Below are positions 20,526-61,400 of a stretch of DNA of 64,000 nt, piece after piece. Position numbers and translations under genes: made by a program. The DNA lies in NCBI GenBank assembly GCA_016490735.1, contig JAEMWC010000248.1, forward strand, positions 138,501 to 202,500, read 5' to 3'. The first letter of the stretch is position 1, and each line of letters opens with the position of its first letter. The notes below the pieces were generated by a model that ran no database searches, had not been told where the DNA came from, and saw nothing but the letters and a program-made list of their open reading frames with translations. The DNA is from Pachyseris speciosa. Taxonomy: Eukaryota > Cnidaria > Anthozoa > Scleractinia > Pachyseridae.

Positions 20526-22081
20526 GTCGACGGGAGTCAGCAAAACCGCTGTCCAACTTGATAAACGCCACTTGAGTCTTTCGAAGACAAAACAAAGAGA
20601 AACTCACCGTTTGAGGTCTTTATATTGAAACAAATCACATTACGATGCAGTTCCTGGTGCTGCGGTCTGTTTTATCACTCATCTCACAGTTGTGTTAAGG
20701 CTACTAAACAATGCTTAACAAACTTGTCCCCGCAAAGCCTTCCAGTTGTTCACCAAAAACCAACAGTCGAGTGGGGTGTATGCCCTCATGCTTTTACAGG
20801 GCATAAACGACCAAGTACCTGAGGAGTAAGTAAGATCCCCCTCCCCCCCACCCCCACCCCCCGAAATCGCTCTATCGTATAATAACGATATATCAGTATT
20901 GCTTGTACCAAGTACCTGCATTACATACTCCAATAACATCAGACTTTGTAACTTTCTACAATGTTCTAACATTTTTTTTTTCTGCAAAGCAGCCTCATTC
21001 AATTTTTTGCCTTATTTCAGTCTATATATTCACAAAGATATGCAAACCAGCAATATTCATACAAATATGCACGCAGTTTATAGAGTGTTACACTCTTGAA
21101 GCTTATACACTTCTTGTATGGGTAATAGCATGGTTTGAAGTGATATTTGGTTTAAATACCACGAGTGATATTTCAAAACTGTTATACATAATTGGGACAA
21201 TTTTGGAATATGACGAGTGGTATTTATGCCAAATGTCACGCACAAATCATTCTATTTTTTTGTTTAGAAGGCTACTACCTGAGAAATTTATGCAATGTCA
21301 TCTTTTTATTTCGTCCAGTTGTTTCGCTGCATAATAGAGGAAATTCCTTTTGAAATTCTTGCTTTTGGTGCAACTGGTCCGAACATTAGCCAAGTCGGAG
21401 TACATTTTTTTAAGTGTTTTTCTTTGAGTTCTTGAATCTATTAAAATTGAAAATCTGGAAACTTTCCGCCATTTTTTTTAATTGTAACTGTCATGTAAGT
21501 ATGTCAATTTAAGCTGAAAAACCTGTTCTCTCAGCCAATCAAATTGCAGAAATTCTCAGGTAGTAGTATAAGGCTTAAAATACCTTCATGTAAGCCAGTT
21601 ATGTGTTCCATATCAGTTGCGCCTCCAAAGTGAAAAATAGCGCGTACTGTTTGTGTGGTTGAACACGACTGAAACGCCACGAACAAAATAAGCTACAGCA
21701 GACTACTATTGTACATAAGTACTAAAAAACGTACTAAAATACGTATCTACCTAAAACTTTGATCCTTGTTTTGCTAGACTGTCTGTGTCATTACTTTATG
21801 TTGCAAAAAAATATAAAATAAAATATTTCAACTGTCACCGAGTGAAATTTCCAAGCGGTGAAGAAAACAATTATTGTCTCGCTTCCTAATCCAAATACCC
21901 CAGCCGGTCTACTCCCCATCTTACACTTTGCTGGAGGTGTTGCAGTTACGACTATGAAACAATTAAAATAGTGGTAACATGCATGAAAGTGTTTTACATT
22001 TAACAACACGTTTCAACTCAAGGTTTGTGGATGCGAAAGTTACTTCATAAACCACGAATTTTCCAACCAGCAGACTGAAAA

Positions 22082-22340
22082 GCTGAGTTAATCCCCCATA
22101 AAGGTCCTATCTCCATAGTAATCCCTCTAAAGTTACTTTTAGATGTCCTCCAAGATCCGTTGTTCTCAAGAGGGTTTTTACCAATTGCGTAGCAGCTGTC
22201 AACACTGGTAAAAATGGGGACATATGATTGGCTATCACTCAAACCTCTTGGGAAAACCGCACCTTGGAGGACATCTAAAAATACGCTGGGGATAGTGATT
22301 ACGATGCGGATAGTGCCTATATGGGGAATTAAATCTCTTA
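22082..22340. repeat. Foldback element (copy A)
   Basis: Arms of about 65 bp (left: AATCCCCCATAAAGGTCCTA, GTAATCCCTCTAAAGTTA; right: their inverse ending CCTATATGGGGAATTAA) surround about 110 bp. The equivalent in copy C is at 53,990-54,230, where the arms match each other better. Non-coding. Confidence 0.7.
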
Positions 22341-22769
22341 TCTTTATCCTCTCTTGCTTCAACATATTCCAGGCCCGACAGGCAGTGTATTTGAAGAACT
22401 AAGGTGTGTACGTGTGCTACATTGTTTTTAACTACTAAACTCTTATTCTACGATAAGCAAAGGCAAAGCAGAATTAGTTTAAATCTTTAGAAATCAAAAA
22501 CAAACACCGTACAGAAACAGGGTTGCCACTTAACGGGATAAAAAAACCGGAAAATTTTCCCTTACCAACCACGAATTTTCAGACCATTCTGCAAAAAAGC
22601 TTTGTGGGTGAAGCCAGCGATGACATATAAAATATCAATACTGGCAAGCCACAGTAAATTTCCCTGACTCTAACTCTGTATTTCAAGACAACAAATCCCG
22701 TGTCCTTGAAAAAAGTTCTTTTTCTCTGACTTTTCCCGATCATAGCAACCCAGTTTAAGTTCCATGCGA

Positions 22770-23228
22770 TTATTCCTCATTAACCCATTTCTCCAGAACG
22801 TCGGCGACATCCATTCTGTTAAAATCCTCTTCCTTCAACAGCTCAATCAGCCGTCCAACAGTTGCATCAGGGCGAGATGACCATGTCTCCAAAATGGTAT
22901 CAGTGGGGTTTCGTAGCTGCCCAACGAAGTTGATCTCATCTCTGTCCAATCCAGTTTTCTCTGCCAGCATTCGGAAGTCGTCAAATCGAAGAATTCGCTT
23001 GACACTCAACATCACACAGACGCGGGAGTACACTTGCAGAGGTATGTATTTCACCTTCGCAGAAAGCCGACGTTGCTGAGTGCTGGTGTGTGTCTTGCGA
23101 GCCACAAACTCCTCGACTTCACTGACGATTGCTTGAAAGGTACCCTGAACTTCTATGACAAGCACGACCAACACGACAGTGAACAAGGCATACCACATCG
23201 GTGGTGTCAACAGTTGATAGGCTGTATT
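22770..23228 (-). CDS. SLC6/Death gene copy A, exon 6 (last helix and Death domain)
   Basis: After the acceptor CACCTTAG the exon reads NTAYQLLTPP, a membrane helix (WYALFTVVLVVLVIEV), a basic linker with a THTSTQQRRLSAKVK stretch, then the Death domain (residues about 303-389) and the stop TAA at 22770-22772. The conserved Death-domain tryptophan is at about residue 357 (ILETW). The MyD88-like reading rests on IPLQVYSRV, DDFRMLAEKTGL, NPTD and RPDATVGRLIELL in that order. No clear AATAAA was found directly downstream. Confidence 0.9.
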   Translation of the reverse strand, partial: NTAYQLLTPPMWYALFTVVLVVLVIEVQGTFQAIVSEVEEFVARKTHTSTQQRRLSAKVKYIPLQVYSRVCVMLSVKRILRFDDFRMLAEKTGLDRDEINFVGQLRNPTDTILETWSSRPDATVGRLIELLKEEDFNRMDVADVLEKWVNEE

Positions 23229-26200
23229 CTAAGGTGTGAAACAAAAAGTGTTAGCATAGCGGAAAGAAGGGGAGAGACATAACAGACGAGAGAAGAAATA
23301 TTAAATTTGACATTTTCACCTTACGATCTTTGTTGGAGGCAAATTCAGTGATGAAAGTAGCCCCCCCCTCCCTTCCCGGGAGGGGGGGGGTTCAAAAACA
23401 ATTAGTACGAGGAGGCTCCGCCAGGAGGTCCGACCCCTTACCCTTTTATATACCATTTTTGACAGAAAAGGTACCCCTTTCGTATACCTTCCGTTGCCAA
23501 ATGGTACCCCTTTCGTATACCTAAACAGGAAGTCTTGCTGTCATTTTCATGTAGCGAAGTGCACACGTCATTGGGGGCATCTGGAAAAGTTATGACTGGA
23601 AACATTTTCAGGCCTCTGAGGTATTATTTTACCGTCGTTATGTTGATGAAAATGATGCGCTATTATTTTTCAACTATATAAACTCTAGGCACCTCAATAT
23701 TAGGTTCACTATGGAAAAAGAAATAGATCATAAAATACCTTTCTTAGATGTTCTTATCAACAACGACAGCAGTAATTTTCCTGTTACTAGTGTTAACCGC
23801 TAGAAAACCTTCACGGGTCTATTGACTAATTACTTTAGTTTTACAAACTGGGTCTCATTTGCACTCTTTTTGATAGAGCTTACAAGATCAGCAACACTTG
23901 GTTCAGTTTTCACGAAGACATTACAAAACATACTAAAATCCTCCAAAAGGATCTTTTACCAGCCCATCCGAGTTTTTGTGTGCGGGCAGTCTCTGGGCCT
24001 TAGCCAGACACAAATTGCCACAGAGGCAATGGGTACAAAAAGTACCCATGTATAACGAGAGAGAGAAACATCCAGACATGCTTCGCCCCCGCGAAACTAC
24101 ATACCCTGCTTACTTTTTCGTAAGACACGCACACAAGGAGGGAAAAATATAACTTAACCCTTTCAACATCGAGAGGGACTGTATAGATTTTACTCTGGCT
24201 AACGCCAGATGATTTTACTCCTCAATAGGAGGCCCTTGGTGGTGAAAGGGTTAAATTCAAACTTTTTACCGAGGCAAGTGCCTCGGTTCGCCTCATGCTA
24301 GCTACGGCTCTGGCTGTAATGGCTGCTACGTCGGCGAAACCACTCAGATTTTTCCACACGTGTGCAATTGAGCACCTTGTCAGTGATAGGGCCTCTCATA
24401 TTTACACAATTCTCAGCAATGCCGCACTTTACGTTCTAATAGTTGTTTTAGTATGTTAGATCACGCTTCCACCATCTTCCAACTTAAGATCAAAGAAGCT
24501 ATTCATATTCAATGAGGCAACCAACATTAAATCATCAACTTTATCACGTTAATTTAAAACTTTCTTTGTAACGGGCATACATTGTCATGTTTCCTTTTGT
24601 TGTGATATCTAATTAGCAATCCTTACACTACAAATTTTATCATGTTTTCTTATGTTTTTTATTCTAGTAGTTATTTATAATCTTATTTAGTCAGGTAGTT
24701 AGATTTAATTAAATAGTGTAAAACCTGAAGGAAATATCGTGGTTAAATAAAGATTTTACCTTTACCTTACCCTACAAATTCAACTTTGTACTTTGTGTAA
24801 TTTAAACTGAAGATGACAGAAGAACTGTCAAAGCATGTTTTTAAAATAAAAAACGTCGTGCATTTTCTTAAAGTCGTTGGCAATGCTTTTACTTCTCTTG
24901 TTCAGATTACAGCATCATAAAAAAAATCTTTTTGAAGACAAAGAGAAAGAATTTCTCTCTTGATGGCACAAGCAATCTTAGGTGCTTTCTCACGGTAAAT
25001 GGGCGTAGATGTAGGGAAATCGTTATCAAATTAAAATTGTGAACAGAAGGCAAAAATGCTGCTTGCACTTCTATTTTACCAGAGTATCGTCTGGAAAAAG
25101 GTAATCAGAAGTTATCCTGGTTTTGTTTGTGACTAGACTAGTAGTCCCTTGTTATTTTATTATTTTGGGGGGGAGGGGGGGAGGAGAGAGAAGATAAGTG
25201 ACCGAAACACTCAAGTGCAAGTCTACAATGCACTAAAACTTTTGTTAATCATGGGATTAATAAAATTTCAATCGAAGAAAAATGTGGTGGGGCTATAGCC
25301 CTACCAGCCCCACCCCCCACCTCACGGTTCCTGTAGCCTAATAACCCAAAAAGTAACTATTCACACAGTATACTATATTCTTTTTCTTTTTTTTCTCTTG
25401 AGCCTGCCTCAAATAGCTACTAAGCTACCTGTGGGCTCAAACGTTTTGAAATATTTATGTACTATAAATTAATAAAGTTGTTGTTGTTGTTGTTGTCCAG
25501 TATGGATACCTGTGTGGTAAGGATGCCTGTCACATCTGCCATGAAGCTATCAGTATGACACACCATCATTCCAGCAACAAGCAAAGTGTAACAGTTGATG
25601 ATCAACAGCACAGAAACACAGTACGACACTTGACTGTCACGAGGTGGGTGGGTGATGCACACGGTCAAAATTCCCACATTCATCATCAGAATCAGAAACA
25701 TGTCAGGAAGGGATGCATTCTTCATTAACTCCCACTGAAATAAATCCACAAATTAACAACCATTACTCAAGCTAATTACCCGGGCCAAAGGCACCAAGGA
25801 AACGATTCGGCTCTGGGACCGAAGCTCCCGGTAATTACCGGGTCCGTTAAGCTGTTTTGTTTCCACTTCAAATGGGAGTTTCAAATTTTTTGAAAATTAC
25901 ACAGTAAAGTTATCAGCTAAAGAAACAAAATGAACTTTATTAGAGGTCAGAACACATCCTACTTTTCTTGAGATTTTGATTTCAAGATATGGTTTCGGGC
26001 CCATTAAGTTACCGGCACTTTCGAGAAACTGGTCCCCGCTCTTTTTATCTTTCTTTTTTTCTTTTTTTCAATACTTCGTCTTTGTGTCGCGAATTTCCCA
26101 GCTCACATGTTTAACTCGCACCACTGAACACAGAAGGGTTTAAAAGAAGATCAGTTATCTTCACATGTTTCTCACGCGACATGAGTGACCTTCCGTGCAG

Positions 26201-29200
26201 TTGAGTAACCTTCATTGCAAAACTGCACGGAACGTCGAATGATGTTTTCAAAGTAAACCTTCGGTTCTTTTTCATTTTTTTCTGCAAGAGATGCTTGATG
26301 AGTAATCTCGGAGATTTCTCTGATAACATCTAAAATCCTAAACTATTCGATAAGTGTTATCTTTCTCAAACGTTGAACAGAAATTAAATACCCATCAATG
26401 TGAACAATGTGATTAGTCATTTTAGAGTAAATAACCAATTTTCACCTCATTAGCTATGCTGAGGTTACGTTGTGTCGTGGTCATTGTCACTGCCTCTGAT
26501 GTCTAGTAGGGGCAACTTTGAAGTTTTTTTTTTCTTTTGCCTTTTTCTGCTTTATTTTCTTAGAAGTATTACTATTGCTATCAATAGTTCAGCTTGTTAA
26601 AGAGATAAAAAATGTGCTAAGTGCATTGTTGAGTTATATAAGCATGCTGGAATTTTTATGAACATGAGAGAACTGCCTAGAGAAGCACAAGCCACAGCCA
26701 AGTGCTTCTTGCACTTCTCGAGTGTTCTTAAAAATTCCCAAGTGCTTATACAACTCAACAATATAAGACAAACAAGTTTTTATATTTCGTTTACAAATTT
26801 TAAATGCTCCAGAGATTTGCACAAGCTTTCAGACAAGGAGAAATTGATAAAATGTGGCGACACTCCAACTTTTCTTTTATGTTCAAAATAATGTCAAATG
26901 TGGATTGAATCACATTTTTTTGTTTTTTACTTTATTTTCTTTATAACATGTCCAAAGGTTTGCATGAGCACACACTTGTGACATAGCCAGTGTGCATTTT
27001 AATTCCACAATACATGCCCATGATGTAGGGTATGAAGTTGAGAAATAATGTACTCGATTCCACCAATCATAGCGCACATAATTCAGGATTTAAAATTAGC
27101 GCTCGCCCACTCACCAATGCGAGTGTCAAACCTGTCAGGCGCGTGGATTACTCGCCCAGTTTGGCAAGTGGAATTTTCATATTGAAGGAAATAACTGTAA
27201 CTGATTGTTTTTGACAAAATATAATCTAAACCTAAACATAACAGTATTTTTCACATTCTGAAAGTTTTAGAAACATGACACATACACACAAACTGATTTC
27301 TGGGTTGGTAAATATATGAAATGGCTTCTGTTCAAGTAACACTTACATAAAGTACCTAATCGTAGTGATGGCACTGGTCAAAGGGGCAGTATAATATTGA
27401 TCAAGGTTCCAGGTAAGATTTTAAGGCAAGGTGTCAACAAGGAATTCCATCTGGTCAAATTTCCAGTGCTCCCACCAAACCATTATAAATTTTCTATTAA
27501 TTTGTTGGGTCATGTAGCTGACCTTGTGGGGTTTTACACCTGAGACCCCCCTCTTATCTCAGACACTGATTGATTGTAAGTAAAAAATCTGGAAAGCAAG
27601 GGAGATTTTGATCTGTTTACCAATGGGATACAAAAAATAATGGCCGCATATTCTTCAATAGTTCATGGAAAACATTCTGTGTTTTTTGTTCCCCTGAAGC
27701 CATGATGAAAATGAATACCAATTTGAAAACGTTGGGCTGATGTTTTCAAGTTCTCCCCTCAGCATCTCAGATGAACTTCGTAATAACTAGGTGTGGCTCA
27801 TTTTTCTATTAAAATTTACTTGATTTTACCACACTGCTGATCCAGGAACAATTCAAGAATAAAAAAAAAACAATGAAAATGTACTTAATAAATATTTGGT
27901 CAAAATATCAAGGATAATTCACATGATAGTCTGCCCCTATTAACAAACTGCTCTACTGAGACAAAGATCTGATGGCTACAGTGGCGACCACAGCTCATGT
28001 TGCAAAGAAGTTTACTCACAAAGTAAGACCCAGACCTATTTTTAGGGGGTAAACTTTAAAATTAGCAAGACACAAATTTCGCTTCATTGGCACTTTAATG
28101 CCTTAATACCGCGCGAGTATTGTGCAAAAGCAATGGAAACGAAATTTGACGAATTTCGTTCTTTGTTTTTGCGAACTTTTCGTGTGATATTTCAAGCGAA
28201 AAGTATCATTCACAGCAAGCAAACAATCACTAGATACAAACGAAAATTTGCTCAAAATATCGCTAAGTGCCATGAAATTTCGATCAAACTATCGCAGAGT
28301 GCCGTGAAATTTCGCTTGAACTATTGTGGAGTGCTGCAAAATATCGTTATCACTCAAACAATAGGACTCCCGAAATATTGTCAAAAAATCACTCCAAATG
28401 AAATTTCGCTAATTATCATCGAATTTCATTTGCATTACTTTTGCACAATACTGTAAGTCAGAAGGAGTCTCTGAGATCTCTGAGGCATTATTGTCAGTAT
28501 GTGACACTTGATATAGGTTTGAGATTTACTTACATATGGAGTGACGTCTGCATTTACACAAATTCCTGTTACACAGACAACTCCACCAAACACCAACAAC
28601 ACCTGTAGAAAAAATGAGAAACAGATAATACATTTTATAAAACACTCAAAACAACAACTTTTATGTATGTTGTCATTTTAGGAGTGTAGCTTAAAAATTG
28701 TCAAACCAGTTTAATTGAAGGGCTGAGAGCATAACCGACCCAAATGACTTTTATGGTTTTTTTCTTTTTTTGGTCCAAATCAGCTGAATGTTTGCACGTG
28801 GCCTTTGATTCAATAGAACAAAATTGCCCCATATTTTTTTTGAATATTTTCCACTCTTTTTCAAGAAAAAGCGTATACAAAAAAAGGCCCTAAAAGTCAT
28901 TTGGGTCGGTTATGCTCTCAGCCCTTCAATTTTTATTTTCTATGGTCAAGGTTGATCTTGCAGAAAAAAAGGTGCTTGGCTATTTTTAAAAAATGAACTC
29001 AGGGTCTGATAAAACTAACACTTTTGACAAAACTTGTCCCTGGGCAAGAGACACGATAAAATCACTTGCCCAGCAGGATGAGCCGCTTGTCCCAAATCAT
29101 GTTGTTGGAAATCTAGCAATTGATTTGGTCATTCCTCATCACACACGCAGTGTAATTCACACTTTCAGCATGGCCGTAAAGGGGATTCTTTCTAAACCTT

Positions 29201-32200
29201 TTGCTTCCTGTTGCCAATGAACTGCATTGACAATTTGCTGAAGACTTCCAAACCCAAATGAAACTGTCCAAAGATGTTCCCTCGACCACGACTTCCAGTC
29301 CCTCAAGTGCAAACTGAAACTCCACTCAAACTTGACATTAGACGCCCTTAATTGGAACATTTTTAAGAGAAATTAATTGAATTTTTGTTGTTAATATTTT
29401 AAAAAACTAGTCATCCAGATTTGTGAGTCAGGCGTGAGGAATTGTCCTCAATGCATGAGATGGATGTCTTTGATCCACAGGCACGAGACTCGTGCATAAT
29501 GCATGAGAGTTGGCAGATACACACTTGAGCTCAGCATGTGAACAGCCCGGGTGGGGGGAGGGGGGGTCTTCTTGTCATTTTCATGATATGTAGTGTTCAA
29601 TAAATTTAGGTGGTATGGTACCCTAGACAACATATGGAAATCACAGGCTTTTAACTAAAAGTGAGTTGGGGGATGGGGGGGGGGGGGGGGGGTTGGGGGG
29701 TATTATTTAACTCTTATTTTCCCCAAGATTTTGATGGAGGACTGGGTATTGTTATGCATGTATCTTGTCACATGACAGCTGGTCACCTGGCTATACTCCG
29801 CTCATTTGAACTCACTCTCTGGTCAGCCAAATCATTTGCTGAATTTACCTTGGAATGTGTCAAAATTGCCCTAAATTACTGTGTTTTGAGTCATTTGCTG
29901 GTGCCAGAGCTCATCATCAAGGGCTGAGAAGGCTTAAACCTTGCCAATTCCAAAGAAACCACTTATTGGCACTGCAAATGCAACAAACTTTGTTCGAATG
30001 ATTGCTTCAATCTGCTGACAGTTTGTTGTTTGGGGCCTAAAAGCAGATGTGCCTTGTCTCACCAGGCTACAATCTTCACTGGTGGAAGTTTCATTAAATG
30101 CTGAGGGTGCTCAAACAACTTTTGGTGCAGGATTGAAGCCTGGTCTGAGGCTTAAAAGAAAATGGTCAATTGTTTTGGAGGAACCTCTCCCACTCAAAGA
30201 TATGTGGAACCTCCCAGGATGCAACGGGGACAGATTCTTGCTGTTTGGCTGCTTGGTTGCTGATAAAAAGGGAGCTGAGAGAGCTCTTGTTTGCCTTTTC
30301 CCCCCAAACTTCCTCTTTCATTTGGAAGCAGAAGAACTGTTTTGTAATGTTTACTCTATGAATAAAGGATTCAGTTGAAAAAAAGATTTGTTGAGACTGC
30401 TCAGTTGCGAGGTAAGATTTTTCATTTCATTCTTGTACTTATATAGTTTTGAGCTGATATACTGTTTACATCCCATCTCTATGCTATTGCTTTGCTGGAG
30501 AAGAGCACTGTCATGCCTGTTTGATTTTTCCCCCTTTGCTTCATGTGTAAAAAAACACTTTTGCACTGATAAAGATGGCAAAACCTGACCACAGCAATTG
30601 TTTTCCTGACCCTATGCAGGTTTGAAATTTGAAACTGGCACGGAATTTGTCGATGGTAACAATTGTTTACTTTCCATGATTTTACTTTTACAATCTTTTT
30701 AGGGATCAAATTTGAAGTAGACAAACCTTCTATGCAATGAGCCAGAATAAAGCCAATCTGTTGAATTGTTCTTTCATAAAATTTGAAAGATTGAAGGTAG
30801 GTATAGGCAGAAAACACCCATTTCTGGCAAAATGAAACTTTGAAGATTTTTCTCTCTCCAAATAACAAGAGTCAGCTCACAAGTTTAGGTTCATTATTAT
30901 CATAGATCAATACAATGAGAATCTGTAAAACGTTGTTTCTTAATTTGCCTCACTGACCAAAGTATTTTTGATTGTTTGTTGTTACCGAGAAAGCACTATT
31001 GAAGACATCTGACAAAAGCCTGTTCTGTTACCATGGCAACAAAAGACTCATACATCATTGTGTTTGTCATCATTTGTGGCAACGAGTTGCATGATGATGG
31101 TTTCTCCTTCATGAGTTTGATTTTGGAGAAAAAAGTAGTCTGGGGTACCATAACACCTTAAAACAGTACAGTCATAAGGTATGTTTGTTCGGAATATTTA
31201 AATGAAAGGCCCTTTTAACTTCCTACAGGGTTTTCATTACAAAATGGAGTAGCAAGAGAATGGTGTGAAGTACAGCAGGAGAATTTCCTTAAAGAGCAAA
31301 CGTCGTTCCCCTCTAGGGGGGTGTGGGGGCATGCTCCCCTAGGAAATTTTGGATTTGTAAACCCTCTGAGATGCCATTTCCTGGTACAGGGGTGTATCTG
31401 ACAGCAAATTTTATGGATACCTTAAAATGGTTTCAAAATGTTGTTTTGTTCTTTGAATTAACAAGCAAGTAAAGCAGGGCTATTAACAGCCTCTGACACA
31501 AGCAAAAAAATGCCTCTGAAGCAGAGGTGATATGGATGGAACTTTCCCAACTTAAGGAAGATGAAAACGAGCTTCTTCATGAGTCAGAATATGAAGGATT
31601 TGAAAGCAGCCAAAGGCCACCAGAAAGGAAATGATACCAAGCACTCATCTCTATTATTTCTCAACAAAAAATCAGCTACTGACATTAAGCGCATCCGCAA
31701 AACTGTGGAACAAGAGTTCCTGAAGGCTCTAACTCACTTTCATTATCATGAAACTGGTCGTTTAAGATCGGAAATCAAACATGGAAAGAGACCGAATTTC
31801 TAACCAAAACACAAACAGTGATATCATGAGAGCTTAAAAACCTGTTTGTAACATAATATCATCCATCAGTGACAAACTTAAAAGAAATCCTCATGAGCAA
31901 ATGGCATTTTATAGAAAAACAACTGATGCTCAGAGAAATATTTAAGGAACCGCCACTAACACTGGTTCATACTAGAGGTGGCGTTCCCTGAAAGATACAC
32001 TCGTTAGAGCAAACAAACAGCTTTCAAAGGATAAAAACATGTGTGTGGGAGTTGCGCAGACCTTTCTAGCCCCTTTCTTTTATCACTGTAGCTGGAGAAT
32101 TCTACGTAGTAGCCGGGGAATTCTCCGATCTCCAATGCTTAATGAACACCCTGAGGGTGCCATAGCAGTACAGTCATAAGGTATGTGTGTTTGGAATATT

Positions 32201-35200
32201 TTAATGTAAGGCCCTTAGCTTTTAACTACCTAAATGACAGATTTCCCTACCCTTTCATATACTTTAACTTGTGAAATTGAAGAGGCTAGTGGAAAACCCT
32301 CCTAAGTGACTATTTAAGTCAAAAGATTTTTCGTCAAAAGTGCCTGATTTTTTGCATAAGACCTTCAATTTACTTATTTATTTATATTTATATTTTACTT
32401 ATTTAAATTGGCGAAAAAAACAGCAAGACATTGTTAATTAAGTAAATTGAAGGCCATATGCAAAAAATCAGGCACTATTGACGAAAAAAAATTTTGACCT
32501 AAATAGTCACTTAGGAGGGTTTTCCACTAGCCTCTTCAATTGCTACCATTTCATGTACCTGAAACATGGAAAAGGTACCCCTTTTGTGTGGAGCCTCCCC
32601 ATATAGGCCATGTAGGCCATGTAGGGTGAGTCAAAATACAAACAATGAGTAAAAATACTCCATGATACTACACGCCAAAACATCTAATAAGAGATTTATT
32701 ATCCAACTTCTATTGCAAACAAAGAATTTATAGAACGAAAGAAAAAACTTTTTTTCAGGAAAGTGCGATAGGTTTTGCATGACATGTATGCTTTTCTGCA
32801 GTACAAATATCCAAATGTACAATATCATGGAATATTTGTACTTGTCTTGTGCATTTTCTGTATAAAAAAAACTAACAGAGTTGCATAATAACTAGTTCTG
32901 ATTAGACACATACCTTTCCAATTGACTTTAGACCAGTGACCACATGATGAATGGAGGAACAAATTTTATCCCAAACCAAGCAAGGGAAATAAGTCGACAG
33001 ACTAGCTGGTTCCACATCATGCCAGTGCTGTGTAATCCAATCCTTTATTAGCCTTATAAATTTCAGGAAGATAATTAATGATCTTCCAGTAACCACCAGA
33101 AGGAAGGCATATATAATGTGGTAGCAACCTGTTGATACATATGTAAATATCAAAGTAAGTAAAACTGAAGGTCTGCCAAAACATATTCAATTTCCAGCTG
33201 TTTTGTGAGCCTGCCTTCCTTGCTCCACACCACATGTTGGGTGGAGGATGATACCGGACTCCCAAAATGGCTGAAAATTGAGCCTAATACAATGCCTGCA
33301 AAAAACAACTAAATTATAATAAACTAAATTAATAAAAATTAATTTAAGTTTATCATAAAAAATATAAGTTAACAAAACTTTTATACTCATCCATATGTAT
33401 ATATTCAGTCACATAATTAAAGCTTGGTAGAAGTAAGTCTAATATAAGCACCTGATGTAAAGAATGTATAGAAAGAGATTCCTACACTTATACTGTATAT
33501 GTAGATACTGTAAGTAAACTGAGTTATAAATCATGCCAGATTTCAGTCTTTGTTTTTTTTTTTTCCGTGCAGCAAAATGCACAAAACAATTAAGTTGCGG
33601 TGTTTTGATTGGGCAATGCACAATAGAAGGCACGTGGTGGTGTTTCATCATAGCCCAAAGTGGTAAGTATTGCACCATCAAGAGCCTTGAGCTGCGTGAC
33701 TCATCAATCTCTTTCTGTTCTGCCTTTGTGGTGGACTGACTTGCTTGGATTACTGAGGAAGTTGCGATATCTTTGTAAAGTTGTAAAGACTTTAATCCAG
33801 TAGAGTTTGTCTGCATGAAAAGGTTTGCTGAATTTAAGACAAGGTTGGAAGCCTCGCACGTGCTGTGAGTATTGACTCGAATTGGAACATTGTGACAGTT
33901 CTATCTATAGAAAATTGCAAATTTGCATAAAGTTGTTTTGATGTAATTTGATCTGGAAGATAACACAACTCGATCGCTGTGACAGTTTTATATTTAGAGA
34001 CAAGTTTGCGAATTCTTGGTTTTCACATGACATCACGAAAACAACAAATTAAACAAATAGATTTTTTACCGTCATCAGGTAAATGACATTTTAAGGATAT
34101 ATCTGCTGACCTGTTTTCAGCCATGTAACACGCTTTATTTTGAAAATAGAGCAGTTTGAATTACGTGTTTTTTTTACAAAATGCGACATTTGGATTGCCT
34201 CTGAGAAACATGTCACATATACGGAAACGATTCACCTTGTATTTTCAAGTTCTGAATAACCAATATGTTGAGAGAAGTGTCTATGTGAATGTTTTCAAGC
34301 TTGGCAGAGAGATGAAATGTTTTCAGAGAGACAAAGTAAACTCCAGATGTTGCCACTTAATTTAAAGGTAAACAACGACAGCTGACAACAAATATGGATG
34401 GCAACTCTCAAAATACTTTAATGCGCTTTGCTCGTACATGAACAAAAAGGCCTTGTGCAAACCCAAAAGCAAACCATTAGCCGGATAGTTTTGAGAATCA
34501 GAAAGCGTGCATCTGACTTCTGCATCACAAAGGTATCCCTAGTAAATGCTCATAGAGCATTTTGTTTATTAATAACCAGTAGCACAAAATAGTAGGTACA
34601 AATTGTATAATGAAAAGCCAAAGCCAGGGGCAAATAAACAAACAAAATGCCTAATTAAAACAGATAGAAGAGGTAGGTACAAGGTGAATATGTTGTAGGT
34701 AAAAATTAAGTTCAGGTAATAAAATTTTAACCTAATTATGTTGAATCTCAATTTCCTTTGTCTCCTAAAATAGCCAAAAAGTTAAAAGCCTTGGAGTACT
34801 GTTGCACAGAGGGTCATAAGTCATAACAGAGACTCAGCAGAGTTTTGTATTTGTCATCATTATCACATTGCATTAAGCTTAAATTTAACATCTTTCTTTC
34901 CTTATTACTATAGAACTTTCATCAACTTTGCTGATACAAGCATAATGCGCAGGATGCATAACAATCATGAACCTTCATGTACGATGTGGACTACATACTG
35001 AGAAAACCAGTACTAGAATCGAAATCTGCCAACAATAGTGGAGAAGCATTCCCTTCTGGCCTCAATGAGCTTAGCATTTTAAATTAATCAGATGTCCAGT
35101 GGAATTATTCACAGATTGAAATAAAAAAAATAAAATGTTTTAGTGTCAACTCAATCTTAAGAGTTTGCATCTCTGTGAAGGTACAGGAATATATTTTACA

Positions 35201-35214
35201 GAAACATAATAATG

Positions 35215-35269
<55 letters not shown>

Positions 35270-37553
35270 CTAACACATGTAAAAAAAGAACTTGGGCAAT
35301 ATTAATACAGTTTAATACAGTTTACAGTGAGCGAATAATCTAATTGTTTTAGTATAAATCTACTAGTCATTCAAAACTAGACAAGTAAATTATCTAAATC
35401 CTCCCGCCATTTTGTTGACAACCGCTACTCACTATCACAGGACAGCTAGTAGCGTGGCCAATCAGAGAATGCCATTCGTGATAGAAAGCTAGTAGATTTA
35501 TACTAAAAAGCGTTATAGTCCATCTTCTATTATCTTGACCTCATGCTTGGCCAAGAACCCATAGCACATAGTCTCCAGTTAAACAAATGGTTGCAATAAG
35601 CTATCACAAAAAGATAAAGAGCTTTCGAAATGGAAAACACAACTTCATGCAAGCCCAGATTAGCTTAGTTTAGTTTGTTTTTTGCACTATTTACAAACAT
35701 TTCTACATTAAAGTACATTAAATGGGTAGAGATATGGCCAGCAGCTAAATTACACACCTGATAAAAAGCAAATGTGTGCAGTGATCAAAGTGGCTTAGGT
35801 GTTTGAGTTGGTCACTGCCATGGACAATTAATTGGCATGAACATGTACATAGATATTTAAAGAACAAAGTAATTTTAATGTTATAATTTCGATGTACAGT
35901 ATGGACTCATTCAATCATGAACTGGGAGTTAAAAATGAAACAGAACTTTCAACTCTTCATCTTTGTTAACTCATGTGGCGATAGTTGCTTACTTGATTCG
36001 TCACGATGTGCAAAATGAAATCAATCAATTCCAATGTACTCACTACTACACAAGGGCATAACTCATCTCCGAATGACTTCTCCACTGCATTGGTAATTCA
36101 ATGTGGCAAACGTGATAGGAAAGTTTAGTTACTTTAGAATATGCTCATAGGGCTATTGGATGATTGACAGATTTTTTCCATTCGGCGTTCACTGGGAGCT
36201 GAAAAGCGGCAAGTGTAGCTTGCTTGTGCGAGTAAAATGAGTCGCTACGAAAAAGCTCATTCTAACATCCTGAAGCCGAAAAACCGATAAAAGCGTTGTT
36301 TGAGAAGCCCTTTCGCCATAACTTTAGCCTAAATGAATTTTTTTAAGTAAGATGAATGCGAAACATGCGACTTCAAATCTACAGCCACGCGAGGTATCAC
36401 CATGAGACCTCACGGAGCAGATCACTCGTGAATAGTCGGCAGTGCTTTGGATGGTATCCTGCAGAAAAATCTAACCACTAAATAATACAAATTTGTGTCA
36501 ACAAATAACGCTTTTCTTTTCTATTAATGAAACGAGAGATGCTCATTTAAGCTTAAGCTTTATAATATTGTCCGGCTACAACATGAAGACAAAATGAAAT
36601 GACTGTTCCATACAACGGCCTCAACTGCTTAACAAACTAACCTTTTCGCCAATCACTTAAGTCCTGTACTGCACTCAAACCTCACTACTAGTCAGAACGG
36701 TTGCTAATACCTGGGAAATAAAGGTATTTAACCCAACCATCCTTACCATAATCCTTTCCATAACTGCCGGAGGCCGGCGGCCGCGTTTTTGCTGCGTTCT
36801 CGGAGGCCTCGGACCCGTTGCGCACGATTGGCTCAACCCTCCTCGTTGACCAATAGGAGAGCGAGTCTTTACTTTACAGAGTTTTCCCTCTCGCGCGTTG
36901 GGATGTGTACGCACGGAGAGGAAAACAACAACATTGCATGAAAATCAGCTGGAACATTGACCCCAATCCAACGTAGTACTGAGTCAATTTAACTTAAGCT
37001 TATGCGAGTTAACTTAAGTAAAGTGAGCATTTCACAGGTGATTTTACATTTGAATACTCGCGAACCCTCAATAAAATTATTTGTTGTCACCCCATCAAAA
37101 TCAAATGATTCTTCTCACCTTTGCTATAGTCTTCCTCAACTTCTTGTGTTAGGTATGGAAGTCTCCATACATTACACAGGCCGACGGTAAAGCCGATCGC
37201 GACAAACTTGAGCAGTGAGAAAAGAAAATCGAATTTAGCAACCCTTCCTTGGTCATTTCCAGCCTGGAGGATCTCGATGTGATCGTGAGCTCCCCACAAT
37301 AAACCCCACAAGTACCCTGTACAAAACGAGAAACACGAAATAAGTATATCTCAAAGCCTCATCAAGGGTGGACTCATCTTCGAACCGGTATTTTCATCGA
37401 TAAACTTTCATGTAGGTGTGCTCGATAGACTTGCCAACCAGGACTTGTCTGTAGTGCAGAAAAGCGCATTGTTAAACTTCATGCTGCATTTGTAGCTACT
37501 GTTGAGTGCCTCCTGTGAGCGGGTTTAAAACGCTTACTTAATGCTGATGCCAT
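22770..37553 (-). CDS. SLC6-like membrane protein with C-terminal MyD88-type Death domain (copy A), six exons
   Basis: Exons on the minus strand: 37538-37553, 37119-37316, 32914-33128, 28534-28602, 25510-25734 and 22770-23228. Every donor and acceptor is canonical and every phase agrees, giving 393 residues. Residues 36-61 are an SLC6 first transmembrane helix (AIGFTVGLCNVWRLPYL; family form GLGNVWRFPYL). Residues 72-96 fit SLC6 helix 2, and 144-193 fit helices 9-10 (ADVTPYWELMKNAS). Hydrophobic stretches at 203-225 and 253-268 would be the last two helices. Helices 3-8 are missing. Residues about 303-389 are a Death domain closest to MyD88 (NPTDTILETW, RPDATVGRLIELL). SLC6 proteins transport amino acids and transmitters; this one lacks most of the substrate core, so signalling is more likely than transport. 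Function is inferred. Confidence 0.85.
23356..23570 (+). repeat. Fragment of ACCCCTTTCGTATACC repeat family (copy A)
   Basis: Starts with a C-run/G-run palindrome (CCCCCCTCCC...GGGAGGGGGGG), then GGAGGCTCCGCC, CCGACCCCTTACCCTTTTAT and two ACCCCTTTCGTATACC words. Related pieces are at 32,220-32,620, 55,205-55,625 and 61,826-61,960. The family appears to have G/C-run termini and no coding capacity. Confidence 0.65.
23600..24750 (+). pseudogene. Penelope-like retroelement remnant with GIY-YIG end (in intron 5, antisense)
   Basis: Around 23,680-24,000 the plus strand reads NSRHLNIRFTMEKEIDHKIP, FLDVLINNDSS, KTFTGLLTNYFSFTN and, after breaks, SKRIFYQP, a reverse transcriptase segment of Penelope-like type. 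Around 24,270-24,590 it reads SGCNGCYVGETTQ, then DHASTIFQLKIKEAIHIQ, the GIY-YIG-type endonuclease end these elements carry. Stops and frameshifts make it dead. Copy C keeps only a short related piece (55,640-55,835). Confidence 0.75.
24751..25389. other. Intron 5 sequence, no feature beyond G-rich run
   Basis: A short G-run lies at about 25,167-25,185. Nothing else recognised. Confidence 0.4.
25390..25497 (+). repeat. Retroelement 3' tail ending in (GTT)n beside exon 5 donor
   Basis: GCCTGCCTC...GGGCTCAAACG, AATAAAGTTGTTGTTG and a GTT run look like the 3' end of a retroelement inserted in plus orientation. The run stops about 10 bp from the exon 5 splice donor at 25509. Copy C has the same tail, partly duplicated (about 55,858-55,938). 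Confidence 0.6.
25510..25734 (-). CDS. SLC6/Death gene copy A, exon 5
   Basis: Acceptor TTATTTCAG, then WELMKNASLP and two hydrophobic segments (MFLILMMNVGILTVCI and SYCVSVLLIINCYTLLVAG), ending GILTTQ before the donor GTATCC. It is 225 bp, phase 0 to phase 0, residues 167-241. The first segment fits SLC6 helix 10 and the second helix 11, but the family match weakens here. Confidence 0.9.
25735..28113. other. Intron 4 sequence of copy A, no other feature
   Basis: Collinear with 56,176-57,820 and 59,697-60,641 of copy C. Open frames such as 26111-26329 and 26658-26891 are not supported by any family or splice signal. Confidence 0.5.
28114..28453. mobile_element. MITE with CAGTATTGTGCAAAAG ends (copy A)
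   Basis: The left end (AGTATTGTGCAAAAGCAATG) and right end (CATTACTTTTGCACAATACTG) are inverted repeats. In copy C the ends are more complete (60,642-60,976) and flanked by TA, a Tc1/mariner signature. The interior has repeated CGAAATTTCG-like words. Presence in both copies dates it before the duplication. Confidence 0.75.
28534..28602 (-). CDS. SLC6/Death gene copy A, exon 4
   Basis: A 69-bp exon between the acceptor TTTTTTCTACAG and the donor GTAAGT, phase 0 to phase 0. It encodes residues 144-166, a hydrophobic helix followed by NADVTPY, matching the end of SLC6 helix 9 and the following turn. The copy C exon is 15 bp shorter in frame. Confidence 0.85.
29544..29695 (+). repeat. Poly-G tracts
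   Basis: GGGTGGGGGGAGGGGGGG at about 29,551 and a near-pure run of about 28 G with one A around 29,668-29,700. Copy C has only GGGGTGGGTGAG at the second site, so the run expanded in copy A or shrank in C. Confidence 0.8.
31862..32030 (+). pseudogene. Penelope-like reverse transcriptase C-terminal fragment
   Basis: Reads PSVTNLKEILMSKWHFIEKQ and LMLREIFKEPPL before a frame break, matching the end of the reverse transcriptase at 42,939-43,806 (NLKNILMSKWHLIENQPMLR). A short dead fragment. Confidence 0.8.
32279..32537. mobile_element. 259-bp foldback element nested in repeat debris
   Basis: The arms of about 100 bp are near-perfect inverted copies (GAAGAGGCTAGTGGAAAACC outermost). AATT flanks both sides; because AATT is palindromic it could be target duplication or part of the arm. 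It lies within an ACCCCTTTCG-family fragment whose uninterrupted form can be seen at about 55,500-55,560. Non-coding. Confidence 0.85.
32914..33128 (-). CDS. SLC6/Death gene copy A, exon 3
   Basis: Acceptor ATCAACAG, 215 bp, donor GTATGT after ATTGGAAAG. It completes codon 72 (G) and encodes through residue 143. CYHIIYAFLLVVTGRSLIIF aligns with SLC6 helix 2 after the usual GG.AF; the second half (SIHHVVTGLKSIGK) fits the stretch just before SLC6 helix 9. The normal helices 3-8 would fall inside this exon and are absent. Confidence 0.88.
33331..35212. other. Intron 2 sequence, no other gene
   Basis: Beyond the end of the duplication. A minus-strand frame at 33439-33816 and a plus-strand frame at 34156-34365 have no recognised domain. 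Retroelement-like AT-rich tails occur but cannot be assigned. Confidence 0.4.
35213..35269 (+). repeat. AAT microsatellite
   Basis: About 18 AAT/TAA units. Confidence 0.95.
35347..35508. mobile_element. 162-bp MITE
   Basis: TTTTAGTATAAATCTACTAG at the left end is repeated exactly inverted at the right end (CTAGTAGATTTATACTAAAA). No clear target duplication and no coding content. Confidence 0.8.
36390..37130. repeat. Segment duplicated at 45,900-46,785 (copy A side)
   Basis: From ACCTCACGGAGCAGATCACT through the GC-rich CCGGCGGCCGCGTTTTTGCT block, the AACATTGACCCCAATCCA block and the exon 2 donor region, this matches 45,900-46,785 in order and orientation. It links the 3' edge of exon 2 and part of intron 2 to a third, partial copy of the gene region. 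Confidence 0.9.
37119..37316 (-). CDS. SLC6/Death gene copy A, exon 2 (SLC6 helix 1)
   Basis: Acceptor TTTTGTACAG, 198 bp, donor GTGAGA. Residues 7-71 contain a charged lead-in and then the SLC6 signature GFTVGLCNVWRLPYL. The asparagine of GLGN, which helps bind sodium in SLC6 proteins, is kept; the neighbouring glycine is C and the F of WRFPY is L. Confidence 0.88.
37538..37553 (-). CDS. SLC6/Death gene copy A, exon 1 (start)
   Basis: A 16-bp coding part, ATG GCA TCA GCA TTA A, before the donor GTAAGC. The ATG context (GAAACTATGG) is favourable and the phase (one base) matches exon 2 exactly, giving MASALR. The 5' untranslated part probably extends upstream toward 37,650. The small size is the main reason for caution. 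Confidence 0.7.
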
Positions 37554-38922: not shown

Positions 38923-38929
38923 AAGTATT

Positions 38930-43806: not shown

Positions 43807-43928
43807 ATAAATCTACTAATCAGGAGAGCTGACAAAAGATCAATACGCTGTTTGATTTTGGTTCCAATAACGATCACAATTATTATCCAAGCAAAACTAT
43901 CACAACAAATAAAGGCTTCTCTCGACAA

Positions 43929-44049
43929 GAACTTATATATAAACGCCTGTCACCTACAAACGAATCGCGTGCTTGCGAGAGGTTTACTGAGACGTTGTGG
44001 TTATCGCGTGGTGAACGACCCTCGTGACTCCCCAGGAGCAATCTGATTG
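43929..44049. other. Short unassigned stretch
   Basis: Nothing recognised between the retroelement and the helicase fragment. Confidence 0.35.
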
Positions 44050-54622: not shown

Positions 54623-55081
54623 TTATTCCTCATTAACCCAATTCTCCAGAACCTCGGCGACATCCATTCCGTTAAAATCCTCTTCCTTCAACAGCTCAAT
54701 CAGGCGTCCAACAGTTGCATCAGGGCGAGATGACCATGTCACCAAAATGGTATCAGTGGGGTTTGGTAGCTGCCCAACGTAGTTGATCTCATCTCTGTCC
54801 AATCCGGTTTTCTCTGCAAGCATTCGGAAGTCGTCAAATCGAAGAATTCGCCTGACATTCAACATCACACAGACACGGGAGTACACTTGCAGAGGTATGC
54901 ATTTCACCTTCGCAGAAAGCCGACGTTGCTGGGTGCTGGTGTGTGTCCTGCGAGCCACAAACTCCTCGACTCCACTGACGATTGCTTGAAAGGTACCCTT
55001 GACGTCTACGACAAGCACGGCCAACACGACGATGAACAAGGCATACCTCATTTGTGGTGTCAACAGTTGATAGGCTGTATT
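54623..55081 (-). CDS. SLC6/Death gene copy C, exon 6
   Basis: Acceptor CACCGTAG, the same 459-bp length as copy A including the stop. The helix reads MRYALFIVVLAVLVVDV and the Death domain is intact. Confidence 0.9.
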   Translation of the reverse strand, partial: NTAYQLLTPQMRYALFIVVLAVLVVDVKGTFQAIVSGVEEFVARRTHTSTQQRRLSAKVKCIPLQVYSRVCVMLNVRRILRFDDFRMLAEKTGLDRDEINYVGQLPNPTDTILVTWSSRPDATVGRLIELLKEEDFNGMDVAEVLENWVNEE

Positions 55082-58000
55082 CTACGGTGTGAAACAGAAA
55101 GTATTAGCATAGCGGAAAGAAGGGGAGAGGCATAACAGACGCAAGAAGAAATATTAAATTTGACATTTCACCTTAAGATCTTGGTTCGAGGCAAATTCAG
55201 TGACGAAAGTAGCCCGGGAGGGAGGGGGGAGGGGTACTAAAAAAATAATTAGTACGGGGTGGCTCCGCTCCGAGGTCCGACCCCTTACCCTTTTATATAC
55301 CATTTTTGACAGAAAAGGTATCCCCTTCGTATACCTTCGATTGTCAAATGGTACCCCTTTCGTATACCCAAGACAGGAAGTCGTCTTGTCATGTTCATGT
55401 AGCGTTCAATAAATTAAAACAGTACAGTCGTAAGGTATGTGTGTTCGAAATATTTTAATGAAAATAAACACCTAAATGACAGATTTCCCTACCCTTTCAA
55501 ATACTTCGACCCGTGAAATCCCTACCCTTTCATATACCTAAAGGTGAAAAAGGTACCCCTTTCGGGCAGAGCCTCCCCATAAAGGCCATTATAGGGAGTA
55601 GCCCCCCCCCCCAGGGGGGGGTGAAAACGTAAAAACTTCATTGGAGGCTGGGTTTCACTTGCACTGGGTTTCATTTGCACTCTTGTTGAGAAGAGCTTAC
55701 AAGATCAAAAACACTTGGTTCGGTTTTCACGATGACACCAAGAAACGTACTGAGATCCTTCAAAAGAATATTTTACCAGCCCATCTAGTTGAAGGGCTTA
55801 TTAATCTTTACCTTACATTTACCCGTAATAACTGAAATCCCCCAGCTTGCGTCTACACTACATTAATAAAGTTGTTGTTGTGAATTGTCCACCAGTATAG
55901 AGTAATATTTGTACCACATTAATAAAGTTGTTGTTGTCCAGTATGGATACCTGTGTGGTAAGGATGCCTGTCACATATGCCATGAAGTTATCAGTATGAC
56001 ATACCATCATTCCAGCAAAAAGCAAGGTGTAACAGTTGATGATCAACAGCACAGAAACACAGTACAACACTTGACTGCCAAGAGGTGGGTGGGTGATGCA
56101 CACCATCAAAATGCCCACGTTCATCATCAGAATCAGAAACATGTCAGGAAGGGATGCATTCTTCATTAACTCCCACTGAAATAAATTCACAAATTAACAA
56201 CCATTACTCAAGCTAATTACTTAAACCGTTTTGTTTCCACTCCAAATTGGAGTTTCAAAAGTTTTGAAAATTATACAGTCAAGTTATCAGCTAAAGAAAC
56301 AAAATGAACTTCGTTAGAGGTCAGAACACATTCTATTTTTCTTGAGATTTTGATTTCAAAATATGGTTTCGGACCCATTAAGTTACCGGCACTTTCGAGA
56401 AACCAGTCGCCGCTCTTTTTATTTTTCTTATTTTGAATTCTATTTTTCTTCTTTGTGTCGCGAATTTCCCAGCTCACATATTTAACATGCACCACTGAAC
56501 ACAGAAGGGTTTAAAAGAAGATCAGTCATCTTCACGTGTTTCTCATGTGACATGTTAGACCTTCCGTGCAGTTAAGTGACTTTCATTGCAAAACTGCACA
56601 GAACATCGAATGCTGTTTTCAAAGCAAACCTTTGGTTCTTTTTCATTTTTTTCTGCAAGAGATGCTTGATGAGTAATTTTGGAGATTTCTCTGACCAAAT
56701 CTCAAATCCTAAACTGTTCAATAAGTGTTTTCTTTCTCAAATGTTGAGCAGAAATTAAATATCGATAAAAACAATGTGATTAGTCATTTTGGAATAACTT
56801 ATTTTCACCGCATTAACTATGCTGAGGTTACGTTGTGTAATGGTTATTGTCACCGCCTCTGATGCTCAGTAGGGGCAACTTTCGTGTAGTTTTTTTCCTT
56901 TTGCCTTTTTCTGCTCTGTTTTTAGAAGTATTATTATTGTTATCAGTGGTTCAACAGTAAAGCAGTTCAGCAATTTCAAAGGGATATTCAGTACAAACAA
57001 ACAGACTCCAACATCATGATAAACACAATGCGTCTGAAAAAAGACAGACTTCTCTTTTCTTTTGTTTCCCGCCAAATTAAGGATACACCCTGTACTTTTA
57101 CAGGCCCAAGTTTAGGTTAATTGTAGCCTCTTTTTCAAAATGTTGTAGGAAGGCATGGCTACCACACCATATTTTACTAAAGAAATAAAAAATATGCTGA
57201 GTGCATTGTTGAGTTACATAAGCATGCTGGAATTTTTATGAAAATGAGAGAAGTACCCAGAGAAGCAGAAGCCACAGGCGAGTTCTTCTTGCACTTCTTG
57301 AGTGTTAAAAATTCACAAGTGCTTGTATTACTCAACAATATACAAGGAACAAGTTTTTTATTTCTTTTACAAATTTGAAATGTCCCAGAGATTTGCACAA
57401 ACTGTCATACTTGGACAAACTGATGAAATGTGACGACACTCCAACCCCCAATTTTGCTTTTATGTTCAAAATAACGTCAAATATGGATTGAATCACATAT
57501 TTTTCAATGTTTTTACTCTATTTTCTTTATAATGTCCAGAGGTTTGCGTGAGCACACACTTGTGACATGGCCGGTGTGCATTATAATTCTACAATACACG
57601 CACATGGTGTAGGGCATTAAGTTGAGAAATAATGTACTCGGTTTGACCAATCGCTGCACACATAAATGAGGGTTTAAAATTAGAGCTCACCCACTCACCA
57701 ATGTGAGTGTCAAACCCATCAGGTGAGTGGAAATGGTAGATTACTTGCCCATTTGGCGAGTGAAATTTTCGTATTGAAGGAAATAACTGTAACTGATTGT
57801 TTTTGACAAAATATAATCTAAACCTAGTTTCAAGTTTCAAGTTTATACAAGTCGATAATTCCTAGTGGACTGAGCCGCAAATAGCCTTACAGCTAATCGA
57901 GGCGGACCAGTCCTTAAATATTACTATTATAAATATAAACATTATTATTAATATTATTACTGATTCGTCTTACGATTACATTAAACAGAATCAAAAATCG

Positions 58001-58361: not shown

Positions 58362-58405
<44 letters not shown>

Positions 58406-61400
58406 CCCAACTGAGCTATCAAAGCCACATGAGAGCTAGGTAGAATGTAAAGAGGAAAACTAGACTAAAACTTGACTTCAGTTGGAAATTTAACTTTTCA
58501 TCATGTTAATTAAGGTATCTGTCTCGACATATGAGTTTTCAGATTCTAGTATTTCAATTAGTTTTGTTCTAATAGTTTTTTAAAAGAGTTATTGGATAAG
58601 TTTTTTAGTCTAGTTGGTATCCCATTCCAGATTTTAACACCAACACGTGAAAAGGCCTTACTTTGAACATTAAGTGCGGATTGTTTAGTGAAAAAATGCT
58701 CAGATGTTGATGAGCGTGTGCTGAAAGAATGAACACTGGCAATTTTAGAGAATAAATTTGAAATATTAGTCGGTGCAGAATTAGTACTGATATTGTACAT
58801 TAAATGAGCAATTTTCTCATAATATAGGAATTGGAGCGGTTGAAGTTTTCCTTTCAAGAAGAGGGGTATTGCATGCTCCCTTCGTTGAGCAAAGTGAATA
58901 AGACAGAGTGCACGTTTTTGAAGGATAAGGACCTTATTTAACAGGGTCTTAGATGCATTTCCCCAAGAAGTTAGTCCATACATTATATAAGGAGTAATGA
59001 GAGTCTTATAAATATCAAGAAGGGTTCGATTAGGAACAATATGTCTTAATTTTGCAATTAAACCAACAGTTTTGCTTAGGTTTGTTTAGGTTTGTTTACA
59101 GCAGCACTCGCTTCTGATCTGCACACGATGAGCGACATCAATGTCATTAAGTGTAATTCCTTTGACACCCAGACAAGAGAATAAATGGAGACATAGTTTT
59201 GCTGTGTCTTCAGATGATTCAGATTCGTTAACTTGTGGGTAGCCAATGATTTTTAGCTTGTACTGGTAGCTGTACTGTTGTAATGCTTCCACAGCATCAG
59301 ATATCTCCTTGACTTTCACAGAAAGGTTTGACAAATCTTTACCAAGTTTGGATATTTTTCCCTGGATAGCAGATTGAGAAACCTGCATGTCATCGTATTT
59401 GTCACTAAGAAACTGTAGACTGTTTTCAAGTTCATGACTCGGTGAAGGTGACGAAGGACCGCCATCTTGTCTTGTTCCGGCCGTTATCTCTTTCTTCTCC
59501 AACAACTCTTTCAGCTCCTTGAAATCTTTGGTTAGGGTCTCAAGCTTACATTTTAAGTCATCGTTTTCCTTTGTAAGTGACTGGATATTAGTTTTTGTCA
59601 TTGTTGAATGTTTCTTAAAGTGAAATTTAGCTAAATACGGAGCTCGGAAATTTCATGCGTACTACCTGAAGCTCTCAGGCTCTCAGGCTCAATCAACCTA
59701 AACATACCAGTAATTGTCACATTCTGAATTCGAAAGCTTTACACACAAACTGCACATTAACACACAAACTGATTTCTGGCTTGGTAAATATATAAAATGG
59801 CTTCCGTTCAAGTAATTATACTTACAAAAAGTACCTAATCGTAGTGATGGTACTGGTCAAAGGGGCAGTATAATTGATTGTAAGTAAAAATCTGGAAAGC
59901 AGAGGAGATTTCAACTTGTTTACCAATGGGAAACAAATAACAATGGCCAAATTTTCTTCATTAGCTCACGGAAAACATTCTGTGTTTTTGGTTATGTGTA
60001 GCCAAAACGAAAAAATTATGCTAACTTGAAAACATTGGGCCGATGTTTTCAAGACCTCCACTTGGATTCTCAGATGAACTTCATAACAACTTAGTGTAGC
60101 TCATTTTTTTGTTTTGAAATTTACTTGATATTAGGGCTGTTTATACGAGAGAAAATAAGCCGCGGATTACTCTGGCCACGGCTTACATAAGACGCGAACA
60201 CCCCGTATAGATGGTACAAAATCTATGTTCACAGCTTTCTCAAGCTGTGGCTTATTGTGGTCTAGGAGTTTTTACTCGTATAAATGGTTCCTTTCGCGTC
60301 TTATGTAAGCCGCGGCCAGAGTAAGCCGCGGCTTATTTTCTCTCGTATAAAGAGCCCTAGTATCTCACAGGTGACCCAGGAGCAATTTAAGAATGAAAAA
60401 TCATTGAAAATTTATTTAATAAATATTTGGTCAAAATATCAGGGATAATTCCCATGATAGTCTGCCCTTTAATAAACCACACTGCTGAGACAAAGATCTG
60501 ATGGCTACAATGGCAACCACAGCTCACATGTTGCAAAGAAGTTTACTCACAAAGTAAGACCCAGACCCATTTTTAGGGGTAAACGGTAAAAGTATCGAGA
60601 AGAAAATTTCACTTCCTGGCACTTTAATTGCCCTTACTAATACAGTATTGTGCAAAAGTAATGGAAACAAAATTTGACAAATTTTGTTCTTTGTTCTTGT
60701 GAACTTTTTTTCGCGTTAAATTTCAAGTGAAAAATCATTTACAGCAAGCAAAAAATCACTGGATACAAAAGAAAATTTGCTCTTGCTAAGTGCCACGAAA
60801 TTTCGATCGAACTATTGCAGAGTGCTGTTAAATATCGTTGTTGCACAAATGATAGGACTTCCGAAATATTGTCCAAAAAATTGCTCCAAAACAAAATTTT
60901 TCTAATTATCACTGAATATTCATGAATATTCACGAAATTCGTCGAGTTACATTTGCATTACTTTTGCACAATACTGTAAGCCAAAAGGAGCTTCTGAGAT
61001 CTCCGAGGCATTGTCAGTATGTGACACTTGATATACGTTTGAGATGTTAACTTACATATGGAGTGACAACTTCAGTTACACAGGCAACTCCTCCAAACAC
61101 CAATAACACCTGTATAAAAAAAATGAGAAAGAGGTGAAACATTTAAAACAACAACTTTTAAATATGTTTGGTTTAAGGAGTGAGGCTTAAAAATTTTCTA
61201 ACCAGTTTGACTTTTATTTCCTATTGTCAAGGTTGATTTTGGAGAAAAAGGTGCTTGGTTATGTAAATGAACTCAGGGTCTTACAAAATTAATATTTTTG
61301 ACAAAACTTGTTCCTGGGTAAGAGACATGATAAATCACTTACCCAGCAGGATGAGCTACTGGTCCCAAATCACGTTGTTGGAAATGTAGCAAGTGATTTG

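Follow-up and report, generated by a model that had tools for sequence, protein, structure and literature searches.

Members of the SLC6 family of sodium:neurotransmitter symporters (PF00209) have binding sites built from transmembrane helices (TM) 1, 3, 6 and 8, and p75NTR and UNC5 are single-pass membrane proteins with ectodomains and a cytosolic Death domain. In MyD88, the Death domain is followed by a TIR domain. According to the accessible part of one source, MyD88 recruits IRAK through Death domains (PMC9897584). One SLC6 protein with a role in immune signalling is SNF-12 of C. elegans, which takes part in epidermal innate immunity and is believed to be needed for STA-2 activation; the accessible portion of that account does not mention a fused Death domain (PMC7043892). 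Tandem duplication is pervasive among coral immune genes, as stated in the accessible section of PMC10236652, and the genome of Acropora digitifera is reported to hold Death domains in other combinations, including with NACHT/NB-ARC, the SLC6 and Death pair being absent from the accessible part of that account (PMC4083563). A thin literature search, with most subscription papers outside its reach, found no description of this pairing.

Within the window, by which we mean the whole 64,000-nucleotide stretch of Pachyseris speciosa DNA that was analysed, six minus-strand exons (Table 1) join into an open reading frame of 393 residues, hereafter copy 1, with GT..AG at all five junctions and phases 1, 1, 0, 0 and 0. 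The preliminary description had proposed this model as a cut-down SLC6 transporter fused to a Death domain, and its coordinates proved exact, its phases match and it recurs in other copies. Pfam profiles run on the joined protein recognise both parts: a Death match at residues 324-390 (E 3.9e-9) and a match to SNF, the SLC6 profile, at residues 33-90 (profile positions 7-55 of 524, E 8.3e-6), the latter limited to TM1-TM2. The whole of copy 1 scores 25.2 bits with SNF, below the 27-bit cut-off, and its first 143 residues score 28.7 bits (E 7.4e-7), above it; whole copies 1, 2, 4 and 7 reach 20.7-26.7 bits, all under the cut-off, and the Death profile gives 32.6-40.2 bits in these four copies, above its cut-off of 22.6. 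Beyond Death and SNF, Pfam gives no domain above cut-off in copy 1, including no TIR (sought to E 10), kinase or caspase domain, and NCBIfam returned no matches above cut-off. The protein shares with SLC6 the TM1 signature, the TM2 region, similarity over TM7-TM8 and three exon borders with their phases, and differs in that TM3-TM4 and TM9-TM12 were not found and a Death domain has been added, the latter also setting it apart from SNF-12 as described.

Table 1. Positions, in the window, of the exons of copies 1 and 2 and of an internal splice-site candidate.
Feature	Position	Strand	Remarks
Copy 1 exon 1	37538..37553	-	Start codon, MASAL, 16 nt, phase 1
Copy 1 exon 2	37119..37316	-	SLC6 TM1 (GFTVGLCNVWRLPYL)
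Copy 1 exon 3	32914..33128	-	SLC6 TM2 region; TM3-TM4 apparently deleted; finishes at SLC6 exon end ..G-K
Copy 1 exon 4	28534..28602	-	Probable shortened counterpart of the SLC6 TM5 exon, judged by exon borders and phases rather than by sequence similarity
Copy 1 exon 5	25510..25734	-	SLC6 TM6-TM7 counterpart
Copy 1 exon 6	22770..23228	-	SLC6 TM8 counterpart, then Death domain and stop
Internal CAG ahead of GGTACC in exon 6	23145..23147	-	Possible alternative acceptor, at start of last stretch of P0001
Copy 2 exon 3	62764..62972	-	
Copy 2 exon 4	61056..61109	-	In frame, 15 nt shorter than in copy 1
Copy 2 exon 5	55951..56175	-	
Copy 2 exon 6	54623..55081	-	TM8 counterpart and Death domain; exons 1-2 of copy 2 lie past the window end

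Judged by sequence comparison, the membrane part is SLC6-derived. Helices 1 and 2 had been recognised as such in the preliminary description, and this part stands; it had missed that exons 4-6 look SLC6-derived too. The nearest solved SLC6 structure is B0AT1/SIT1, and against human B0AT1 the TM1 segment scores 72 compared with a shuffle mean of 30, rising to 93 with exon 3 joined, while neither exon 3 alone nor exons 4-6 alone beat their shuffles. In SLC6 loci of the same genome, with borders read off the sequence without annotation, a phase 1 intron ends before GAFLIPY or a similar motif (its donor side seen only in L004), a phase 0 intron follows ..GK and another phase 0 intron follows F.P(K/E/Q). 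These were found in L002, L003, L004, L006 and L008, about four independent genes since L002 and L003 are nearly identical. The window borders between exons 2 and 3, 3 and 4, and 4 and 5 agree with these introns in place and phase, that is, all three that can be compared; in the SLC6 gene on contig C30 (L001/L007) the GK site is not interrupted by an intron, and the border between exons 5 and 6 lies about 10 residues from that of the single SLC6 gene of this genome with which it was compared. The exon borders are independent support for the SLC6 origin.

Exons 5-6 also align with TM7-TM8 of the C30 gene; the scores, 61-77 in six of six copies, were reached by none of 2000 locally shuffled sequences and, in copy 3 only, by one of 2000 fully shuffled ones. 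This test is not blind, because the C30 segment had been picked by BLAST (E 0.002). From the borders and this alignment therefore follows the order TM1, TM2, (TM3-TM4 lost), probable TM5, TM6-TM7, TM8 and Death domain, and the six hydrophobic stretches in a Kyte-Doolittle scan fit this arrangement. Exons 4-6 had been considered as an unrelated four-helix module, as they gave no Pfam SNF match, no PDB match and no score above the B0AT1 shuffles, and this idea was overturned by the alignment and borders at the SLC6 loci of the same genome. A by-eye assignment of exons 4-5 to TM11 was dropped.

TM3, TM4 and TM9-TM12 were not found by the searches made, so that the protein departs from the 12-helix LeuT-type fold, and with their apparent loss normal transport is very unlikely. 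In TM1, Gly is replaced by Ser in copies 2, 3 and 5. A B0AT1 probe found no hidden SLC6 exons in the window introns, a strongly diverged exon being able to escape such a probe. A transporter that still works, with a Death domain added and the other helices merely overlooked, would suit the well-preserved TM1 motif, yet this reading is highly improbable, given that tblastn of the window with B0AT1 returned TM1 alone at E <0.1, that the remaining helices are also absent from the outside homologue P0001 described below, and that copies 4 and 6 have Tyr in place of the TM1 Asn.

The gene belongs to a tandem array. The regions of copies 1 and 2 align in 12 blastn blocks, 74-92% alike, introns included and with some off-diagonal repeats; the duplicated unit continues well downstream of the stop, 20619-23968 matching 52501-55785 in one block, 83% alike. 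Seven copies with a common exon order lie on one strand in C248:8501-342500, the part of the contig around the window, of which 15,000 bases are N. Exon 1 with its GTAAGC donor does not differ among copies 1-6 and is similar in copy 7, and the other six copies fetched repeat exons 2-6 of copy 1 with order and strand unchanged, so the gene model is not a product of chance. In a whole-genome exon search (94 rows, 13 on contigs other than C248), the array spans 686 kb of C248, from 161273 to 847073, with every match on the minus strand; exon 6, holding the last helix and the Death domain, occurs at 17 places on this contig and at an 18th in two pieces. The C248 rows number 20 for exon 2, 18 for exon 3, 7 for exon 4, 17 for exon 5 and 17 for exon 6 plus the one copy as two rows, and equal scores among some rows may reflect assembly duplicates of haplotypes. 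A longer exon 2, like the N-terminus of P0001, is present at C248 508070-508327, 372900-373139 and 846930-847163, and the N-terminus therefore varies within the array.

A diverged gene on contig C1074, also on the minus strand, carries TM1 at 56.2 kb, exon 5 at 51.0 kb and TM8-Death at 49.3 kb in that order, all open, with 34 of 74 residues identical in exon 5 and 74 of 148 in exon 6. The pairing of a cut-down SLC6 part with a Death domain, as first described, is thus borne out by the seven copies read, by this second locus and by P0001. The introns are long, as would be expected if two unrelated genes had been wrongly joined, but that explanation is nearly refuted: the exon series is common to seven copies, three of its exons recur at the C1074 locus and P0001 spans both domains.

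P0001 was the only one of 7177 candidates at E <=0.001 in a first protein search. It is a protein of 257 residues from a 1102-base contig of source 'lgn', which we take to be Logan, and both its Death score (43.2 bits) and its SNF score (29.7 bits) exceed the cut-offs. TM1 and TM2 are followed by ..SIGK, directly by GTSQVIVS.. and then by the Death domain, the remaining SLC6 helices being absent, and the C1074 exon gives a 61% match to residues 6-83 of P0001. The joint corresponds to the end of exon 3 in the window and the internal exon-6 site, which reads CAG/GGT in copies 1, 5 and 7 and AAG in copy 2, with no AG in copies 3 and 4; the SLC6 exon of L005 begins at FGMMEAV inside TM8, where P0001 joins. 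The most plausible reading of this contig is a spliced transcript, since its 1102 bases hold exons that are spread over about 14 kb in the coral window; the alternative would be a retrocopy. Its AlphaFold model has a mean pLDDT of 52.6 and is usable in the Death domain only.

By sequence, the kin of the Death domain comprise 142 proteins at E 10. All 120 listed have PF00531, with 37-70% identity over the Death-domain stretch, and among these 120 only P0001 also has PF00209. Two of the listed kin are named, P0104 from Oculina patagonica and P0115 from Acropora millepora, both stony corals, and P0115, which has a Death domain, is annotated at only 111 residues. Twelve listed relatives besides P0001 score 35-48 against the part of exon 6 just upstream of the Death domain, values given without a chance control, and 10 of the 12 have an HGTLQAPF-like stretch in place of the QGTFQAIV of exon 6. 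Eleven of the 120 listed proteins contain two Death domains (P0012, P0015, P0037, P0038, P0059, P0060, P0064, P0069, P0070, P0081 and P0098). Across the whole genome, Pfam Death gives at least 149 exon-level matches.

The preliminary description had placed this Death domain closest to MyD88, which holds by sequence among solved structures; by fold, MyD88 ties with p75NTR and IRAK4, and the nearest kin by sequence form a large family with two named members, both from corals. At E 0.01, the only PDB matches of a profile of 72 relatives (70 from the search and two window exons) were MyD88 (8.4e-9) and UNC5B (1.3e-6). The model of exon 6 is a confident six-helix bundle, the Death fold, with a mean pLDDT of 84.9, for which Foldseek placed MyD88 on top at E 5.5e-3, no match reaching E 0.001, and VIA-align scores tie (p75NTR 13.5, IRAK4 13.4, MyD88 13.4, Pelle 12.8). 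Structural alignment with MyD88 yields 32% identity across 94 residues. The coral protein differs from MyD88 in having membrane helices and no TIR domain found; in place of the single pass and ectodomain of p75NTR and UNC5, it has several transporter-derived helices.

In six of the seven copies read, every frame and splice site is intact, and exon lengths differ by threes. Copy 6 is damaged, having lost the exon-6 acceptor and 27 Death-domain residues, and has a Trp codon in place of the stop at the exon-6 acceptor of the other copies; it was excluded from the selection count. Over the 15 pairs of the six remaining copies, pN/pS is 0.61 (bootstrap 0.46-0.85, relatedness and gene conversion ignored) and falls to 0.36 (0.19-0.79) in exon 3. 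For the other regions compared, namely exon 2, exons 4-5, the helix encoded by exon 6 and the Death domain, the interval reaches 1; the Death domain alone gives 0.87 (0.45-2.8) among array copies, indistinguishable from neutral. Against C1074, the ratios are 0.41 for the Death domain, 0.52 for exon 6 and 0.77 for exon 5, and the comparison of copies 1 and 2 alone gives dN/dS values of 0.44 in exon 5 and 0.68 in exon 6. The array might be decaying, most copies being pseudogenes on their way to loss, as the state of copy 6, the missing transporter core and the intervals touching 1 would suggest; the frames and splice sites kept in six of seven copies, the length differences in threes and the C1074 exons that stay open despite their divergence speak against this, and we regard it as quite unlikely.

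The reading that we place first, with roughly even confidence, is that of a tandemly multiplied stony-coral family in which transport-dead SLC6 remnants and a cytosolic Death domain serve as a receptor or scaffold platform. An SLC6 gene would have lost the TM3-TM4 hairpin and TM9-TM12, in whichever order, and kept TM1, TM2 and TM5-TM8, TM8 then being followed by a Death domain from the coral-expanded family. Without the TM3-TM4 pair the helix count stays even, and by SLC6 topology the Death domain should then be cytosolic; it would likewise be cytosolic in the two-helix form represented by P0001. Most likely, the membrane part would anchor and cluster the protein, perhaps under the control of something outside, and the clustered Death domains would recruit MyD88/IRAK/Pelle-class adaptors or kinases that carry Death domains, in a receptor or scaffold role in innate defence or the control of cell death.

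The Death domain might instead act as a membrane decoy that soaks up MyD88/IRAK-type partners and dampens signalling, its variable copies tuning tolerance, for example of algal symbionts. Such a decoy, which we think possible and on balance unlikely, would agree with a protein without TIR, kinase or caspase domain, with the 111-residue relative P0115 in Acropora millepora, and with the variability of 14 of the 67 Death-domain positions (324-390) among six copies. A link from the membrane to Toll/IL-1R-type signalling, as originally suggested, is one option, with a decoy or another Death-domain pathway equally open. A more specific form of the receptor platform, in which the dead transporter became a source of fast-diversifying, multi-copy membrane immune receptors with MyD88/IRAK-like assembly that bypasses the TIR step, in six-helix and exon-skipped two-helix forms of preserved topology, is tentative and, taken as a whole, rather doubtful. 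Together, the array and the fusion suggest, at the level of sequence, a novel type of signalling protein bound to the membrane. If this is true, signalling proteins would have a further origin, in a transporter scaffold without transport, wired to a Death domain and multiplied. The array is a defined, testable candidate family for coral sensing of microbes, symbionts and damage.

The window holds further features. A long 9-nt minisatellite (38925-40000) is open in several frames and therefore produces spurious long ORFs. A reverse-transcriptase-like ORF of 336 residues lies at 42942-43949 on the minus strand (RVT_1, E 4.5e-4, below cut-off), and ORFs at 58561-59652 resemble by eye part of another non-LTR element, with no supporting Pfam match. 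On the plus strand, an exon at 18119-18436 resembles GNAT acetyltransferases (Acetyltransf_7, E 7.1e-7, above cut-off), and a tRNA-Ala (GGC) gene occupies 58352-58426 on the minus strand.
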